From IMG/VR virus record IMGVR_UViG_3300046167_000632, positions 1 to 62,030 of that record: a stretch of 62,030 nucleotides of DNA. One strand, written 5' to 3'. Source of the DNA: a virus. Under the pieces are notes generated by a model, which saw only the letters and a list, made by a program, of their open reading frames with translations, made no database searches and was not told the origin of the DNA. The first letter of the stretch is position 1; every line of letters starts with the position of its first letter. Both the position numbers and the translations under genes were made by a program. This document shows, one piece after another, positions 43,782 through 60,163 of this stretch.

Positions 43782-44561
43782 TTACAGGAAGTCAATCACT
43801 TGCGAGCTATCTACATTGGCTATTAACTTGTCTATTGCAGCCTTTTTTATCTCAGATATTCGCACATAATTACTAACTCCAGTTATATTCAACTTAACAG
43901 CTATTTCTTTAGCTGAGTGCTTGTCACAGTCCATACCGTAACTCAGTCTTACTACTTCATACTCAGCATTGCTTAAGTATTGTTTCATTATACCCATAAG
44001 ATATGCATTCATTAAATCTATATTGTAAGATTCAGATTCATCCGCAACATCATAACTCATTTCAACATCGTCGTTCTTATAAGTATTACTTTTACTTGTA
44101 TGCTTATTATCTAATGAAGCAAACATACTAGTTATAAATATTTTACTTAAGTCTTCGTTGTCGGGATTTTTACGTATCTCGTTTAGTTTATGCTCTGGTA
44201 TTCTCATACCGCCTTTGTTTATATCTATTCTTCTACGTATTGCACCTTTAATTCTCTTACTTAAAAATGATTTTAAAGTTTTTTCAACATCAGGTGATTC
44301 ATCTATAACTAACCAATCTATTTTATTTACAGCCTTGATTAATGCTTCGTTACCTATTTGTATTAAGTCATTAATACTTAGTATTCCAGAGGCTTGATCG
44401 CTGGTTGAAAACTTTCTAGCTAAATTTTCTACTAAAGGCATAAACTTTATTATAAGTTCGTCTTTAGTGTATTCATCCCAGAACTTACCTTCAAGATTAG
44501 CTATAGATGTTTTAACATCTGTTTTATATCTTATATAATTCTGTACATTATATTTCTTCAT
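43782..44561 (-). CDS. Phage-encoded sigma-70-family factor
   Basis: Region 2-like sequence: LIIKFMPLVENLARKFS then ILSINDLIQIGNEALIKAVNKID (about residues 36-82; core binding and -10 recognition). A region 3-like KGGMRIPEHKL follows, and a C-terminal region 4-like helix-turn-helix: LSNAEYEVVRLSYG then SAKEIAVKLNITGVSNYVRI (about 200-240). At 259 residues it is a group 3/4-like factor. No phage RNA polymerase is seen, so it would redirect host polymerase, probably to late promoters. Its targets cannot be read off with certainty. Confidence 0.85.
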   Translation of the reverse strand: MKKYNVQNYIRYKTDVKTSIANLEGKFWDEYTKDELIIKFMPLVENLARKFSTSDQASGILSINDLIQIGNEALIKAVNKIDWLVIDESPDVEKTLKSFLSKRIKGAIRRRIDINKGGMRIPEHKLNEIRKNPDNEDLSKIFITSMFASLDNKHTSKSNTYKNDDVEMSYDVADESESYNIDLMNAYLMGIMKQYLSNAEYEVVRLSYGMDCDKHSAKEIAVKLNITGVSNYVRISEIKKAAIDKLIANVDSSQVIDFL

Positions 44562-51844: not shown

Positions 51845-52110
51845 TATAGTGTCTTTTTTATTATTAGTAATTGCTTTGTGTCAAACTTCTTGTGAGTTTC
51901 TTGCCACATACGGTTGTGGGTGAACTTTCTAGCTTTTGCGAAGTTAGATTTCTGACGAGTTGTAATACTATTGTATTCTTTGTCAGTTAGTCCACCACAT
52001 ACACCGTTTGCTCGAACAGCACGTCTATGCCCGTCTGCTCGTGATTTTTTCTGTAGTTCCGAGTAAGCTAGTAGCTCTTTCATAGTTCTCGGGTTAGATA
52101 CTACGTCCAT
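51844..52110 (-). CDS. Basic hypothetical protein, 88 aa
   Basis: Arg/Lys-rich with a Cys-Gly-Gly turn (RAVRANGVCGGLTDKEYNSI) and an aromatic basic helix; could bind nucleic acid. Overlaps its upstream neighbour by 10 bases. Confidence 0.6.
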   Translation of the reverse strand: MDVVSNPRTMKELLAYSELQKKSRADGHRRAVRANGVCGGLTDKEYNSITTRQKSNFAKARKFTHNRMWQETHKKFDTKQLLIIKKTL

Positions 52111-52295
52111 ATACTCTCAGGTTTTTGAATATAAGTTAAACCTTTGTAGTTGAACCATTGAGTTATACCTTCTCTGTCTTCATCCTCGTTATAGATGAAA
52201 GCAAACTTTCTAGGTAGATTACCTACAGTATAGCCTTTGAAGACAACACCGTTGAGTTTTATTGTACTTGAATTTTTAAATTTAATTTTCTGCAT
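52101..52295 (-). CDS. Hypothetical protein, 64 aa
   Basis: Beta-rich (TIKLNGVVFKGYTVGNLPRK, then FAFIYNEDEDREG). First gene after promoter repeat copy 4 (leader 27 bases). No family recognised. Confidence 0.6.
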   Translation of the reverse strand: MQKIKFKNSSTIKLNGVVFKGYTVGNLPRKFAFIYNEDEDREGITQWFNYKGLTYIQKPESIWT

Positions 52296-52322
52296 AGTTT
52301 ATTATTTATTATTTACATTTAT

Positions 52323-52354
52323 ATTATCCAATAGAAATATTATTTTGTTTGTAA
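52323..52354 (-). promoter_or_regulatory. Early promoter-like repeat, copy 4
   Basis: Minus strand TTACAAACAAAA, 12 bases, TGGATAAT; begins four bases after the stop of the upstream gene. Confidence 0.6.
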
Positions 52355-52358
52355 TTTT

Positions 52359-52538
52359 CTACTTGTATATCTCATTTATTAGATCTTGTACTAACATGTC
52401 TTCAGTCTCTTCCTCTGCAGGAATACAGTCCGTTTCTACAAATAGCTCGATCTTACGAACAGTTTGTTTTTTGCTTAAATAGCTACTTATAAATTTAAAG
52501 TAACTTATAGTTTCTTCTGACCAATAGAATAGACTCAT
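52359..52538 (-). CDS. Hypothetical protein, 59 aa
   Basis: Starts MSLFYWSEETISYFKFISSY and has an acidic C-terminal half with EEETEDMLVQDLINE. Aromatic N-terminus, no clear membrane span. Overlaps nothing; one base separates it from the gene upstream. Confidence 0.55.
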   Translation of the reverse strand: MSLFYWSEETISYFKFISSYLSKKQTVRKIELFVETDCIPAEEETEDMLVQDLINEIYK

Positions 52539-52539
52539 A

Positions 52540-52674
52540 CTACTTGAATTTAGCAGCGACTTCTTGTATTTCTACTTTGTCTTGATGATCTAATCCACTA
52601 GTTTGACTTGCGTACATTCTTAGTACATAGTGTACAAAGGTACAATCGCTTTCTGTAAGTTGTATATTTCTCAT
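52540..52674 (-). CDS. Small hypothetical protein, 44 aa
   Basis: MRNIQLTESDCTFVHYVLRM, then a helical tail. Tightly packed between neighbours. Function unknown. Confidence 0.5.
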   Translation of the reverse strand: MRNIQLTESDCTFVHYVLRMYASQTSGLDHQDKVEIQEVAAKFK

Positions 52675-52676
52675 AA

Positions 52677-52775
52677 TTAGTTTTTTATCGCCCAAGCAGC
52701 AGCGCTACCTAGTTTAGTTAATACTTTGTTTGCTTTTTTTAGTACTAATAGTACTTTGTGTGAAAATTTTATCAT
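52677..52775 (-). CDS. Small basic peptide, 32 aa
   Basis: MIKFSHKVLLVLKKANKVLT followed by a short Ala-rich helix. Amphipathic and basic, so membrane-active or RNA-binding behaviour is possible. Directly follows promoter repeat copy 5 (leader only 17 bases), which supports expression. Confidence 0.5.
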   Translation of the reverse strand: MIKFSHKVLLVLKKANKVLTKLGSAAAWAIKN

Positions 52776-52792
52776 TGTTATTAGTTTATTAT

Positions 52793-52824
52793 ATTATCCA
52801 ATAGTTATTATTATTTGTTTGTAA
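52793..52824 (-). promoter_or_regulatory. Early promoter-like repeat, copy 5
   Basis: Minus strand TTACAAACAAAT, 12 bases, TGGATAAT; one base differs from the consensus. Confidence 0.55.
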
Positions 52825-52827
52825 TTC

Positions 52828-53100
52828 TTAATCGCCTGTATACTCACCTGAGTATGTATTAGAATACCAATCTCTTCGCGCTTCGTGCACTAGATCTTGT
52901 ATTTGTAATAGATCTTGTCTTTGATCGATCAAGTGATCTATTTCATCTCGCATATCTTGCTCGCTTAGTTTAGTAAACATACTTGTTTCTAAGCCATCTA
53001 GTAAGTTTCTGTCATTGCAGTGATAGTTATCGTACTTGATACCATTCCAAGTCTCGCTTAGTATATAAGTATACTCTATATTTCTGTAAGTTTTAGTCAT
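52828..53100 (-). CDS. Acidic hypothetical protein, 90 aa
   Basis: Tyr/Asp/Glu-rich; TYILSETWNGIKYDNYHC then a long helix with two Asp/Gln/Leu segments. Ends three bases before promoter repeat copy 5. Family unknown. Confidence 0.6.
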   Translation of the reverse strand: MTKTYRNIEYTYILSETWNGIKYDNYHCNDRNLLDGLETSMFTKLSEQDMRDEIDHLIDQRQDLLQIQDLVHEARRDWYSNTYSGEYTGD

Positions 53101-53230
53101 TATTAGTAGATTTATAAAAGTTAATTCTTGTAAGTATCTCGCATCGAGAGATCTTACCTTCCACTTGTAATAGTATATCGCTTGACATATCTATTTTTTT
53201 ACCATTAGGTAGATTTAGTATAAATTGCAT
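53093..53230 (-). CDS. Small hypothetical protein, 45 aa
   Basis: MQFILNLPNGKKIDMSSDIL then a basic tail. The stop overlaps the next start by eight bases. Function unknown. Confidence 0.5.
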   Translation of the reverse strand: MQFILNLPNGKKIDMSSDILLQVEGKISRCEILTRINFYKSTNND

Positions 53231-53240
53231 AGTTTATAGT

Positions 53241-53360
53241 TTAGTAGAAGTCATAGTATATATCTATTACTTGAGATCTTTGATCACTAGTTAGTTCGTT
53301 AAAGTCTTTCTTGAATATTCTTCTTGATATTTTTAGTAAGGTATATGATTTTGTACACAT
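53241..53360 (-). CDS. Small basic protein, 39 aa
   Basis: MCTKSYTLLKISRRIFKKDF followed by an acidic Tyr-rich tail. It lies just downstream of tRNA-like element C in the leftward direction. Function unknown. Confidence 0.5.
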   Translation of the reverse strand: MCTKSYTLLKISRRIFKKDFNELTSDQRSQVIDIYYDFY

Positions 53361-53382
53361 AGTTTTATTATTTATTAGTTAG

Positions 53383-53458
53383 TAGTCGTTGGTGGAATCG
53401 AACCACCTCACAAAGTAGAGCTCACGTAGTCAAAATGCAGAGTGAAACCGTTACGACT
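53383..53458 (-). tRNA. tRNA-like element C (non-canonical)
   Basis: 76 bases with a T-arm GGTGG-TTCGATT-CCACC and acceptor strands AGTCGTA/AACGACT (six of seven pairs), so overall size suits a tRNA. No good anticodon stem is found in the expected place; TTCAC/GTGAG pair around a 16-base loop instead. May be a degenerate tRNA or a tRNA mimic. Confidence 0.4.
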
Positions 53459-53475
53459 TGTTTGATCTGAGAGTA

Positions 53476-53703
53476 CTATTTTTCTAGTACTTCTCGAGCG
53501 ATCACTGGTACACTAGTTGAAGAAGTGTAAGACTTGTACTTAATGAAGCACGCCATATTTTCCAGTTTAGACTTCATTACTTCATACACTTTATCGTGAT
53601 TGTAGGTAACTGTTTTACCATTTTTGAAGTTGACAGTGATTAACTGATTTTTACCGATTAGAGATTTTCTGATTACAAATCTTTTTGAAATTAAAGTTGA
53701 CAT
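53476..53703 (-). CDS. Hypothetical protein, 75 aa, paralogue 1
   Basis: Shares SKRF(V)IRKSLIGKNQ, YNHD and KYKSYTSSTS with the protein at 54857-55087, so the two are recent paralogues. Basic, beta-rich N-terminal half with an FKNGK turn. A promoter repeat (copy 6) precedes it by 52 bases. Duplication within an early region suggests selection, for example against a variable host target. Confidence 0.65.
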   Translation of the reverse strand: MSTLISKRFVIRKSLIGKNQLITVNFKNGKTVTYNHDKVYEVMKSKLENMACFIKYKSYTSSTSVPVIAREVLEK

Positions 53704-53755
53704 AGTTAAAATTATTTAGTTATTATTATTATTATTATTAGTTTGTTACATTTAT

Positions 53756-53787
53756 ATTATCCAAATGGAATATTATTTTGTTTGTAA
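53756..53787 (-). promoter_or_regulatory. Early promoter-like repeat, copy 6
   Basis: Minus strand TTACAAACAAAA, 12 bases, TGGATAAT, followed by a (TAA)n-rich leader to the ATG at 53703. Confidence 0.6.
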
Positions 53788-53790
53788 AAT

Positions 53791-53958
53791 TTATATAGTT
53801 TTAAAAGTTATAAAGTTTTTAGTTAATAGTTTTGGAATATCAATATTAGAAGGATTATTAATAATTTTAAGTTTATTATTTAAAGTTATAATATTAATAT
53901 AATTATTAGTTAATAAGTTAGTAGTTTGTTTAATTTGGTATTTATTTATTAAAAACAT
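53791..53958 (-). CDS. G-depleted small protein gene, 55 aa
   Basis: MFLINKYQIKQTTNLLTNNY, Asn/Ile/Leu/Lys/Thr-rich. Apart from the ATG, the coding strand of 168 bases has essentially one other G (a GAT codon). It lies neatly between promoter repeats 7 and 6, which supports expression. Composition is unlike its neighbours; function unknown. Confidence 0.5.
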   Translation of the reverse strand: MFLINKYQIKQTTNLLTNNYINIITLNNKLKIINNPSNIDIPKLLTKNFITFKTI

Positions 53959-54004
53959 AGTTATTATTTTTTAAAGTTTATTATTATTATTTATTTTCAT
54001 TAAT

Positions 54005-54036
54005 ATTATCCAATACTTAATTTATTTTGTTTGTAA
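54005..54036 (-). promoter_or_regulatory. Early promoter-like repeat, copy 7
   Basis: Minus strand TTACAAACAAAA, 12 bases, TGGATAAT; 46 bases before the G-depleted gene. Confidence 0.6.
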
Positions 54037-54198
54037 AAGGTGTATAATTATTTATTAGTAAAAATAGTTACAGAAGTATAATACTCTTTCTCTTCTTGTA
54101 CAATACAGAAAGTTTCTCGTAGGACGGAGTCTACTCTTCCGATCTTGTTTCAGAATCAGGCCTGCAATGGAACACTAAACTTAGTTTCTCAAAAAGTG

Positions 54199-54241
54199 TG
54201 ACATTTGCCTATTAGATTAAGATAGTAACAGGCTATTGTCA
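54199..54241. promoter_or_regulatory. Inverted-repeat operator, copy 2
   Basis: TGACATTTGCC (54199-54209) and GGCTATTGTCA (54231-54241), spacer 21 bases. It lies just past the stop of the leftward gene at 54246-54395, with no gene of its own downstream on the plus strand. The 54037-54198 stretch before it has no convincing gene. Confidence 0.6.
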
Positions 54242-54245
54242 CAGT

Positions 54246-54395
54246 TTACAGATGCTCATCAACTAGCATGTTGAGATCATCCCACAGTTTTCCAGTTTGT
54301 TTAGTATCATACACATCATAGATTGTATATACTTTATTGTCCACTGTCAATTCATAAAGATCATTGTCTTGATCAATTTTAAATGATACTACCAT
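54246..54395 (-). CDS. Acidic small protein, 49 aa
   Basis: MVVSFKIDQDNDLYELTVDN then a helix with DDLNMLVDEHL. The gene is rich in GATC sites. Its start overlaps the upstream stop (seven bases). Function unknown. Confidence 0.5.
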   Translation of the reverse strand: MVVSFKIDQDNDLYELTVDNKVYTIYDVYDTKQTGKLWDDLNMLVDEHL

Positions 54396-54559
54396 TGTTT
54401 TCTAGGATTAAATTTGATTTGTACAACATATTCATTTTTCTCTTGATCATCATCTCTGTGATCACAATATTCTGAGAAGTCTATTATTTTTGATTGATCC
54501 AGTGTATCATAAAATTTGTTGAGGTTTGAGATCCCTGTGATCATTTTTTCTATTATCAT
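54389..54559 (-). CDS. Acidic small protein, 56 aa
   Basis: MIIEKMITGISNLNKFYDTL, then an Asp/His/Glu-rich middle (YCDHRDDDQEKNEY) and a beta strand. GATC-rich like its partner. Function unknown. Confidence 0.5.
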   Translation of the reverse strand: MIIEKMITGISNLNKFYDTLDQSKIIDFSEYCDHRDDDQEKNEYVVQIKFNPRKQW

Positions 54560-54607
54560 AATTATTAGTTTTATTATTATTAGTTTATTATTATTAGTTT
54601 ATTATTA

Positions 54608-54778
54608 TTAGTTTATTATATTATTTAGTTGTGCTAAATTTTGTTTTAGGTTTTGAATATTATTAATTGAAATTAGGTGATTTTTTAGATAATTGTTTTT
54701 TAAGTGTTCTGGTGTAATTGTAGTTGAAGGGTGAAATAGATTTTTGTGAGTTAAGATTTGGTTGATTAATTTTTGCAT
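54608..54778 (-). CDS. G-depleted small protein gene, 56 aa
   Basis: MQKLINQILTHKNLFHPSTT, then Asn/Leu/Ile/Lys/His-rich. The 171-base coding strand holds only about three G residues including the ATG. Preceded by promoter repeat copy 8 (leader 39 bases), so probably expressed. Similar in composition, not in sequence, to 53791-53958. Confidence 0.5.
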   Translation of the reverse strand: MQKLINQILTHKNLFHPSTTITPEHLKNNYLKNHLISINNIQNLKQNLAQLNNIIN

Positions 54779-54817
54779 AGTTGTTAATTATTTAAGTTAT
54801 TATTTATTTACATTTAT

Positions 54818-54849
54818 ATTATCCAAGTTGGATTTCGTTTTGTTTGTAG
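54818..54849 (-). promoter_or_regulatory. Early promoter-like repeat, copy 8
   Basis: Minus strand CTACAAACAAAA, 12 bases, TGGATAAT; one difference in the first element. Confidence 0.55.
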
Positions 54850-54856
54850 TAAGATC

Positions 54857-55087
54857 TTAATCAGTTATGATTAATGATCTTGTAACTACAGGCATTGAAG
54901 TTGATGAAGTGTATGATTTATACTTAGCCCAACAGTTCATTGTTTCAAGTTTTGGTTTCATAACATTGTATACATCGTCGTGATTGTACTTTGAAACTTT
55001 TCCGTTTTTGAATGTTACTTCAATGATTTGATTTTTTCCGATTAATGATTTGCGAACAACAAATCTTTTTGATTTTAAGATTGACAT
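54857..55087 (-). CDS. Hypothetical protein, 76 aa, paralogue 2
   Basis: Paralogue of 53476-53703: shared SKRFVVRKSLIGKNQ, VTFKNGK, YNHDDVY and KYKSYTSSTS, with divergence at the C-terminus. Led by promoter repeat copy 9 (leader 47 bases). Same unknown function or a divergent target. Confidence 0.65.
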   Translation of the reverse strand: MSILKSKRFVVRKSLIGKNQIIEVTFKNGKVSKYNHDDVYNVMKPKLETMNCWAKYKSYTSSTSMPVVTRSLIITD

Positions 55088-55134
55088 AATTTATTTATTT
55101 TATTTAGTTATTATTAATTATTTATTTCATATAT

Positions 55135-55166
55135 ATTATCCATTATATATATTATTTTGTTTGTAA
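55135..55166 (-). promoter_or_regulatory. Early promoter-like repeat, copy 9
   Basis: Minus strand TTACAAACAAAA, 12 bases, TGGATAAT. Confidence 0.6.
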
Positions 55167-55185
55167 GTAGTTTACGATAATTCGA

Positions 55186-55356
55186 TCAAGATTTCCTGGA
55201 TAGATCGAAATCGTTACGAGCTGCCCAAGCCTTGAGCTCAGGGATTGGACCGAAGAAGATCTCTTCGACTGATCCGCGTTGATCATGATCAAGCTCCGCG
55301 TAAAGCTTTTGGTGAAGACTCATTGAGATCTTATCAATTGTGGTAAGGTATGACAT
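55186..55356 (-). CDS. First early gene: small acidic protein, 56 aa, GATC-rich
   Basis: MSYLTTIDKISMSLHQKLYA, then ELDHDQRGSVEEIFFG and LKAWAARNDFDL. Its codon use is far more GC-rich than the neighbours and it holds seven GATC sites. It is the most upstream leftward gene, led by promoter repeat copy 10, so it may be the first phage protein made. Function unknown. Confidence 0.6.
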   Translation of the reverse strand: MSYLTTIDKISMSLHQKLYAELDHDQRGSVEEIFFGPIPELKAWAARNDFDLSRKS

Positions 55357-55397
55357 ATTTTGTGATTTAGATGTAGAGCTTAATTGCTTACATATAT

Positions 55398-55429
55398 ATT
55401 ATCCATGATCATATGTGTTATGTTTGTGA
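55398..55429 (-). promoter_or_regulatory. Early promoter-like repeat, copy 10 (outermost)
   Basis: Minus strand TCACAAACATAA, 12 bases, TGGATAAT; the most diverged first element of the ten. Drives the leftmost-firing, most upstream early gene. Confidence 0.55.
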
Positions 55430-55616
55430 AATCAGCTCTACGAAAATGATCGATGATCACAGTATGGATCGATCCTACGAGGCAAAACGTAAAACGTAAA
55501 ACGAAAAACGTAAAAAATGTGGGGCCGTGGGCTAAATGAAAATGATTTTGTGATCAGGGGCCGTTGGTGAAAAAAGAGGTGTAACACTTTTACCCCTATA
55601 TATCTAACGAAAACTA
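55430..55616. other. Divergent intergenic region, candidate origin or control region
   Basis: This gap separates leftward early from rightward virion genes. It contains a 7-bp tandem repeat (55484-55511), GGGGCCGT direct repeats (55521-55528, 55557-55564), several GATC sites and a hairpin GGTGTAA/TTACCCC (55578-55596). No convincing gene is present. Confidence 0.5.
55484..55511 (+). repeat. Tandem 7-bp repeat, four units
   Basis: AAAACGT, AAAACGT, AAAACGA, AAAACGT in direct succession with exact period 7. Iteron-like, in the divergent gap. Confidence 0.75.
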
Positions 55617-58609: not shown

Positions 58610-60163
58610 ATGGATGCAATAGTTAAAAATCTAAACTTCGGAGAGAAGGCTAGAAAAAACGTCTATGAGGGTATAGACAAGTTAACAAAAGCTGTAAGCT
58701 CTACATTAGGTGCTAGCGGTAAATGCGTTATGCTAGAAGATCACACTGGTAAACCAATAATAACAAAAGACGGTGTTACAGTGGCAGAGTCAGTTATATT
58801 AAGAGATCCAGTTGAAAACATGGGAGCTACGCTTTTAAAAGAAGCGGCTCGTAAAACTGTTAAAGAGGCTGGCGATGGTACAACTACAGCTACAGTACTT
58901 GCTCATGCAATACTTACTGAGGCTTACGAAGTCTTAGATAAAACAAATAGTAGAGATTTAAAAGAAGGTATTGACAAGTCTGTTGAAGCTGTTGTAGATT
59001 ACTTAAAAGAGAACTCTGTAGAAGTAACTGATGACATGCTAGATCAAGTAGCTACTATATCAACCAACAACGATCCTGAATTAGGTAAGATAATTGGTGA
59101 TGCTTTTAGGTTAGTTGACTTAACAGGTGTTGTCGTAATGGAACCTACAGAAGATAATGAAACTTCGGTTGAATTAGTCGAAGGTGTAGAGTATGACAAA
59201 GGACTTGTAAACTCACATTTTGTAACAAGCAAAACAAAAAGAGCTGCAGAACTTGAAAACGCTTTAGTGTTAATAGTAGAATCACCAGTTGAGTCTATAA
59301 GAAAAATACAAAGTGTTTTAGAATATGTTATAAAGAATAACAAGGCTTTATTAGTCATAGCTGATTGTGAACAAAGCGTTATATCGGCACTGGCAATGAA
59401 TAAGGTTAAGGGTAATATAAAAGTAAACGTCATAAACGCACCTACATATGGTGTAAGCAAAAAAGATACATTAAATGACTTAGCACTATTAACTGGCGCT
59501 ACAGTTATAAATGAAGATCTTGGAGATGATATGGACCTTATACAACCAGAATATCTAGGAAGTTGCTTAAAAAGCATTACAACAGACCTAGAGACTATAA
59601 TACAAGTAGAGGATAATAATCCAGATGTAGAAAAACTAGTCAAAGACTTAAGACATCAAATAGAAACAACTAAAAATCCTAACGAGATAATAAGACTAGA
59701 AAGAAGACTTGGTAGAATATCGGCTAAGGTTGCTATTGTCAAGGTTGGGGCAAATTCTGAAATAGAATTAAAAGAAAAACAGGATAGGGTTGAAGACGCT
59801 ATCTGTGCTACTAAAGCCGCAATAAAAGAAGGTATTGTTTCTGGTGGTGGCATTGCACTCCTAAATGCATCAAACAAAATAAAAGCAAAAACAGTAGGGG
59901 AGAAAGTTTTATTGAAGGCAATAAAGGCTCCATTTAAAACAATACTAAGTAATGCCGGTATAGATAAATACGACAAGCCTGATGCTGATGGTAAAGGATT
60001 AAACGTGGTTACAGGAAATATGGTAAATATGATAGACTCAGGAATTATCGATCCTTTACTAGTAACTAAAAGCGCTTTAAGAAACGCGGCTTCTGTAGCA
60101 TCAACAATACTATCTACTGATTGTGTAATTAATAACTTGAGGATTGATGATAGCAATAGGTAG
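58610..60163 (+). CDS. groEL: Phage chaperonin GroEL (Hsp60), 517 aa
   Basis: Chaperonin signatures are intact: N-terminal [32 protein letters not shown] (catalytic Asp54), [11 protein letters not shown] (nucleotide-binding Asp89), and [22 protein letters not shown] near the C-terminus (the E. coli Asp398 region). The apical domain is the most diverged part and the C-terminal Gly-Gly-Met tail is absent, giving 517 residues against 548. A GroES gene overlaps its end. The leader (58484-58609) is AT-rich and non-coding. It probably folds virion proteins too large or unusual for host GroEL. Confidence 0.93.

Follow-up and report, generated by a model that had tools for sequence, protein, structure and literature searches.

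Short genes almost without guanine, probably an early class in Bacteroidota-type phages

Introduction

E. coli RelE makes its main cut in mRNA before a G at codon position 3. For RelE, YhaV and HigB, the accessible text of two papers places a G just downstream of the cut, with the 5' part of the gene favoured (PMC8546651, PMC5224514); a frame free of G and closed by TAA would escape such enzymes. The genes described here depart from the E. coli RelE preference in that they are depleted of G at all codon positions. Phage T4 offers a possible analogue of the proposal made below, in that RegB, a RelE/YoeB-like phage RNase, cuts GGAG/U motifs in early phage mRNA, mostly in translation start regions, and reshapes early expression; the accessible sections of the source mention no G-less genes (PMC3014915). 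The same source describes T4 Dmd, an early product that binds RnlA, and another describes TifA (85 aa), which inhibits ToxN (PMC9391042). As small phage proteins that counter host RNases, Dmd and TifA may be analogues of the products of the G-less genes, and the accessible parts of both papers do not mention G avoidance. A RegB-like gene was not identified at the present locus.

Bacteroidota ribosomes do without Shine-Dalgarno pairing and favour A-rich, unpaired start regions. Kozak-like starts of this kind, with A-rich leaders and A at -3, resemble those found here, and an A-rich start with A preference is described for F. johnsoniae in the accessible part of PMC6847099. That bias belongs to the start region, whereas in the G-less genes it is the whole frame that is affected. 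To my knowledge, no natural set of protein genes lacks one nucleotide at every codon position, and a search of titles and abstracts for guanine-free protein genes turned up none among the papers listed, a weak negative because most subscription papers lie outside its coverage. Here I describe two nearly G-free genes, A and B, which belong to a class of short (~50-80 codons), promoter-proximal, probably early genes of Bacteroidota-type phages.

Results

The window, i.e. the whole stretch of DNA analysed, is a virus contig of 62,030 bases whose primase-helicase is nearest, among isolate phages, to that of Cellulophaga phage phi10:1 (43.9% identity). Its products include ribonucleotide reductase, DNA ligase, ERF, a protein with a crAss-type muzzle domain, another with a MazG domain and, from 58610-60163, a phage-encoded chaperonin (Cpn60/TCP1, E 2e-59). 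Genes run rightward from ~55.7 kb and leftward from ~55.4 kb, and the leftward array opens with many short genes. I infer that this short-gene region is the early region and that the repeat ACAAACAAAAT-N12-GGATAATA, present in seven copies in the window, all on the minus strand, is its promoter. The product of 43782-44561 (minus strand) has a weak match to sigma-70 region 2, below the Pfam cut-off, and is, judged by sequence, a possible candidate for the reader of GGATAATA promoters. Among 433 leaders behind such boxes in the loci fetched for comparison (handles beginning with L), G makes up ~2% of positions -20 to -1 and A stands at -3 in 87%. These G-poor, A-rich leaders leave little room for Shine-Dalgarno sequences, and their Flavobacterium-like combination of A at -3 with ~2% G makes a Bacteroidota bacterium the likely host.

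Gene A (ORF1; 53791..53958, minus strand, 55 aa) and gene B (ORF2; 54608..54778, minus strand, 56 aa) had been singled out in a preliminary description as frames of 168 and 171 nt with about 2 and 3 G, and a base count of both minus-strand ORFs confirms those figures (coding strand A82 C19 G2 T65 for gene A, A88 C35 G3 T45 for gene B). As the start codon supplies one G in each, avoidable G comes to one in gene A (in an Asp codon) and two in gene B (in one Glu and one Ala codon). The intervening genes contain G and GATC, as that description had also stated: 54389-54559 and 54246-54395 hold 26 and 29 G, and 5 and 3 GATC, respectively. The putative promoter repeat likewise precedes both ORFs, at 54004..54034 (minus strand) for gene A and, as a variant whose box is 45 nt ahead of the ATG, at 54817..54847 (minus strand) for gene B. 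Between repeat and start codon, the A-rich leader of gene A (53959..54003, minus strand) contains one G, near the probable transcription start; behind the gene, G returns in the next promoter repeat (53755..53785, minus strand; box GG).

Sliding-window strand composition, run over the whole 62 kb, places both minima on these two ORFs. Plus-strand C (equivalent to coding-strand G) averages 24.1 per 150-nt window (sd 6.4), falls to 1 on each ORF, and is 5 in the lowest window elsewhere. The five longest C-free runs (114, 78, 76, 74 and 66 nt) are in or beside the two ORFs, the maximum elsewhere being 59, and the window has a single ATG with 112 G-free bases after it, an arrangement seen in 0 of 100 dinucleotide shuffles. 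Given the codon usage of ORFs of at least ~200 codons in the fetched loci, where 48% of codons contain G, the probability of no more than one G codon in 54 is 1.6e-14. General composition, which had been named as an explanation that would undo the observation, thus does not account for the G depletion, whether judged by windows, by this probability or by the distribution of genes described below.

ORF1 is a genuine gene. Its relatives in IMG/VR (family A) form a 15-sequence alignment in which the others are 36-82% identical to the window copy, and the family is under purifying selection. In loci L041 and L063 one and the same protein is encoded by sequences that differ at 7 nucleotides, each difference being synonymous, and neither sequence has a G past the start codon; in some members the start-codon G is the sole G. 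Codon counts over 15 members (omitting L059, which is 1 nt from L058) give AAA 109 to AAG 0, CAA 35 to CAG 0 and TTA 79 to TTG 0, with no AGY serine and no NCG codon. Where L025, L027 and L047 carry 4-6 G, all of these are in codons unable to avoid G. Summed over the 15 members per 10 nt, the count of G is 25 at the promoter box (-30 bin), drops to 1 and 2 over the last two bins ahead of the start, and is 0-6 through the frame, start codon aside; it returns downstream, reaching up to 18 per 10-nt bin ~100 nt past the stop (14 members). Third-position pairwise differences involving G are 0 of 385 in gene A and ~18% of 707 in the adjacent gene, here called KSKR (7 genomes, the pairs being non-independent).

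An AlphaFold2 model of gene A built from the 15-row alignment (mean pLDDT 96, pTM 0.77) has a predicted beta-alpha-beta-beta-alpha-beta topology by DSSP, like that of ferredoxin-like domains, and gene A is accordingly predicted to adopt a ferredoxin-like fold. The best structural match on a second look was 4zoq_A (VIA-align: Z 7.8, rmsd 1.8, 53 aligned residues, 11% identity). With Z below 8, 11% identity and an arrangement that is very common, the match does not imply a function. Searches of gene A, gene B and KSKR against Pfam and PHROGs gave chance-level matches only, tblastn with gene A and KSKR found no match in 50,697 isolate phage records, and a gene A profile found nothing in three genomes that hold KSKR relatives. 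One 69.4 kb contig, 3300046170_000347 (L011 and L012), has gene A close to each end, which suggests a terminal repeat or an assembly overlap.

ORF2 is probably a genuine gene as well, with thinner support from sequence than gene A. One homologous ORF was found, in L013 (L014 is not counted apart from it once identical ORFs are removed), 69% identical across the matched part and with 9 G in its 168 nt besides that of the start codon, so that the property is partly lost. The preliminary description had held that loss in homologues would count against the pattern; it is kept in the ORF1 family and in another family, but partly lost in this relative of ORF2. PADLOC returned one weak match, to gene B (E 0.01), and nothing convincing.

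KSKR (the label is coined here) is a conserved gene of ~75 residues with up to two copies per locus. In the window, one copy adjoins gene A (53476..53703, minus strand) and has normal G, 36 of 228; the second (54857..55087, minus strand) is just upstream of gene B. The repeat at 53755..53785 belongs to the copy behind gene A and another, at 55134..55164 (minus strand), to the other copy. In most family-A cases KSKR is 50-90 nt downstream. Its predicted structure has a pLDDT of 92.8, and fold and sequence searches gave no significant or convincing relative. Resemblances to enterotoxin B subunit (E 0.077 to 0.92) and to archaeal splicing endonucleases or YoeB were at chance level and were not used. 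As to a RelE-type toxin, PDB sequences gave no RelE-family profile match and Foldseek listed YoeB weakly, at E 1.7 and rmsd 17.5; Foldseek lists are ranked matches only, and the absence of a family from them is uninformative. For KSKR, tblastn confirmed 421 matches in IMG/VR; genome contigs gave 12, several of them on short contigs of MAGs from unrelated phyla. Alignments of KSKR omitted L056 (broken frame) and, in a second version, also eight other fragmentary, long or divergent ORFs, of 96 representatives. The early region of the window (52000-55600) has a surplus of GATC, 37 against 16.5 expected from trinucleotides; a GATC peak around KSKR is absent in up to 78 relatives. A segment at 53388-53462 (minus strand) looks tRNA-like by eye, with a T-arm-like hairpin; ARAGORN and Rfam gave no match to it, and it folds no better than shuffles (z 0.51).

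Among the 165 distinct KSKR genes whose upstream sequence spans 400 nt or more, 14 have a G-less gene immediately before them; these phages, then, do not all carry the class. In loci fetched by the promoter and not through KSKR, 4 of 414 genes within 1.5 kb of KSKR are G-less, whereas none is among 599 at a greater distance or among 705 in loci where KSKR is absent. Of the 12 KSKR-relative loci in genome contigs, L274 and L276 carry a further G-less gene. KSKR could be the partner or simply a fellow early gene.

To place these genes among their neighbours, 268 loci fetched via family A, family B, KSKR or the promoter (7 being pieces of the window) yielded 3,041 plausible genes, each having 18 or more choice codons, ORFs with identical nucleotides being counted once; as the KSKR-derived loci are the best 80 of 421, the counts describe this sample, not all such phages. 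Codons with obligatory G have a median share of 38% and fall below 5% in 19 genes, of which 17 are also without any synonymous G codon and 2 have some, while genes with at least 15% obligatory-G codons average 19-23% synonymous G. Short ORFs behind the box are similarly bimodal (21 of 564 below 6% G codons, 7 at 6-15%). Instead of the tail that a composition artefact would give, the G-less genes form a separate mode, though intermediates exist. There is no mirror class without C: across 5,644 ORFs, 3 low-C ORFs stand against 22 low-G ones, and by their coordinates the 3 are antisense to two G-less genes plus one low-complexity frame.

A wider set of 24 G-less genes, whose rule leaves out L027 (11% obligatory G) and L031 (upstream in-frame ATG), both counted elsewhere, contains no Gly, Cys or Trp in 1,381 codons and almost no Ala, Val, Arg, Asp or Glu. 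All 24 stop at TAA, against 411 of 555 comparison genes. G at codon positions 1, 2 and 3 is 0.068, 0.014 and 0.028 of baseline, and of the 40 G that remain, 28 are in Asp or Glu codons, an excess over the 11 for other residues (Fisher 9e-8, rounded baselines). Pressure on nucleotides might be expected to leave just these, since other residues have G-free stand-ins (Ile for Val, Lys for Arg, Thr or Ser for Ala) and the acids have none. The remaining G also lie mostly in the 3' half (32 of 40), a skew inflated by the shared descent of family A.

The G-less genes fall into several families: A, B, L042/L137 (with L251 and L159 at E 2e-4 to 0.02), L050, L085, L047:5367-5522 and L276. These miss each other at the thresholds used or match weakly, and their short length may mask remote kinship. 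Among the matches listed, relatives of L042/L137 were on those two contigs only. The L085 family keeps few G besides that of the start codon, namely 2, 3 and 3 in three genomes whose copies are 80-92% identical, whereas L276 has 1 G and its nine relatives have 14-29, so that this protein needs no G-less coding. With L013 at 9 G and L025, L027 and L047 at 4-6, the property is graded. Three further short genes, L117:74-313, L224:5671-5904 and one in L119 (minus strand), have 12-15% G codons; by eye they resemble a common early gene (window 52101-52295), of which they may be relatives poor in G, and they may be intermediates in G loss.

A GATAAT box lies 10-74 nt ahead of the ATG in all 26 inspected G-less genes. 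By script (genes below 12% G codons, box within 80 nt), it was found for 23 of 27 G-less genes, while the remaining genes gave 681 of 3,392 and the remaining short genes 504 of 1,627; mechanically taken starts are probably to blame for the 4 misses. Promoter position alone is not the cause, since in 112 long genes close to a promoter G codons account for 32% or more of the first 50.

As a control on chromosomes, an ATG with 127 G-free bases behind it was sought in genomes from the family and the class of the genome holding L279 (uncultured Flavobacteriales), two sets that share genomes, and was found in 1 of 35 and 5 of 149, respectively; in the class-level search the reversed pattern gave 18 matches against 11. 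Of 12 places fetched, 8 are interrupted by in-frame stops and the other 4, though open, look repetitive by eye, so no phage-type G-less gene was seen in this control.

Discussion

The class is very probably real and selected at the nucleotide level. Because the depletion respects gene borders, affects the coding strand and extends to TAA stops, selection on RNA is indicated, and I infer that the pressure acts on translated RNA. Composition, local hypermutation, DNA unwinding and protein need are, each taken alone, poor accounts of the data, and selection against G in translated mRNA fits best. What exerts it is a more tentative matter. My best explanation overall, put forward as quite possible and not as probable, is that a G-directed RNase selects for G-free translated mRNA. 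Early in infection, an mRNA-cleaving activity directed at G, perhaps ribosome-dependent, would be at work; candidates would be a host A-site RNase of the RelE/HigB type or a RegB-like shut-off RNase of the phage. A G-free frame with a TAA stop would offer the cutter no target, the G of the start codon would be safe because AUG sits in the P site, and small G-less proteins, for example an inhibitor of the cutting activity, would still be made. Selection on the nucleic acid would strip G, and the proteins would adapt to the eleven residues for which a G-free codon exists (F, L, S, Y, P, H, Q, I, T, N and K).

Escape from a G-specific RNase had been suggested for genes A and B beforehand. It fits an avoidance that runs approximately from transcription start to stop, at both the synonymous and the amino-acid level, but the cutter itself remains hypothetical: PADLOC, Pfam and PHROGs gave nothing convincing as a nuclease. 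An A-site mechanism leaves the start codon unexposed and would explain its universal G, weakly, since ATG is the start codon anyway. Depletion extends to codon position 1 as well as the position 3 favoured by RelE, so the agent would need a broader taste or would be a free RNase; leaders are already G-poor across the group, and untranslated regions therefore cannot separate the two. Speaking against an RNase, early genes that contain G would be cut, and some are apparently on the same transcripts, since a G-containing gene follows without an intervening box in L042 and L050. The absence of a G-less gene ahead of most KSKR genes and the graded G content, with 9 G in the homologue of gene B and 4-6 in some family-A members, also count against it. 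Two neighbouring ideas were set aside, a GA-specific collateral RNase because residual G codons are mostly GAN, and Rho utilisation, which calls for C-rich, G-poor RNA, since family A has little C either (10-32 per ~170 nt). That these are G-null messages, from which key early proteins are made while a guanine-directed activity, ribosome-bound or phage-made, destroys other mRNA, is a more specific and rather unlikely reading; if true, its price would be an amino-acid alphabet of 11-12 letters without glycine.

The main rival to an RNase is unstructured mRNA for ribosomes that do not use Shine-Dalgarno pairing: tiny cistrons would extend the G-poor leader through the frame and so maximise initiation and translation. 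I regard this as possible but doubtful. The leaders themselves, with their F. johnsoniae-like composition (PMC6847099, accessible part), suit it, and 23 G-less ORFs fold at -1.3 to -7.0 kcal/mol per 100 nt against a mean of -17.0 for ordinary ORFs (the first 60 short ORFs of the list). The distance from box to ATG has a median of 22 nt for G-less and 34 nt for ordinary genes (p = 0.07), and G-less genes number 15 of 243 at 24 nt or less and 12 of 551 at longer distances. In ordinary genes, too, such a short leader goes with a lower share of G codons among the first ten (0.27 vs 0.33). Past those ten codons, however, the same ordinary genes have normal G (0.43, n = 226), C is less avoided than G, and an amino-acid change over at least 50 codons far exceeds what initiation needs. 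The earlier suggestion that structure is avoided holds insofar as the G-less ORFs fold weakly, but these show no sign of avoiding the A-U pairs left to them (mean z -0.57), so structure is a possible target and not a required one. GTP-sparing transcription, by which the first early cistron would be completed while GTP is scarce (through a ppGpp response, phage MazG or defence), draws on the same G-free stretch from about the transcription start to the stop codon of a first cistron, and on the MazG-domain protein of the window. It is unlikely, as translation itself consumes GTP and some transcripts appear to run on into G-containing genes; I know of no precedent.

The remaining alternatives bear on DNA or protein. 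Local mutation bias, in which deamination of template C to U turns coding G to A and proteins drift towards N, I, K and Y, would account for the enrichment of these residues as G-to-A products of D/S, V/M, E/R and C. It is nonetheless improbable: the border to KSKR, with its normal G and normal A/G differences, is sharp, which argues against a local mutational process and leaves no sign of G-to-A hypermutation; frames remain open, with family A under purifying selection; and A-T, A-C and C-T differences are all present in the G-less genes, nearly only G being missing. That the proteins themselves require a glycine-free composition rich in N, I, K, L and T, with codon bias following, gains from the prediction of gene A as a well-folded small protein, but synonymous G is absent too, the property is common to several families and similar-sequence relatives of L276 use G, all of which makes this very unlikely. 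Hardly any weight attaches to an element at the DNA level, a C-free template serving replication, unwinding, or escape from modification or restriction. Its location in the divergent region where strand skew changes would suit such an element, yet the depletion tracks the coding strand and gene ends, the mirror C-less class is absent and the family-A protein frame is conserved. Unwinding in particular, raised in the preliminary description, is poorly supported, as G resumes in the next gene and the depletion is not that of a DNA region.

Conclusions

If pressure from a G-directed RNase is the cause, these genes would point to a layer of conflict between Bacteroidota and their phages that is directed at guanine and has yet to be described, and their composition would serve as a simple signature by which to search for counter-defence genes. 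Should the cause be translational, gene A is still a confidently predicted natural fold made from ~12 amino acids without glycine, useful for questions of minimal alphabets, and natural G-less messages would offer tests of how ribosomes that do without Shine-Dalgarno pairing choose their mRNAs.
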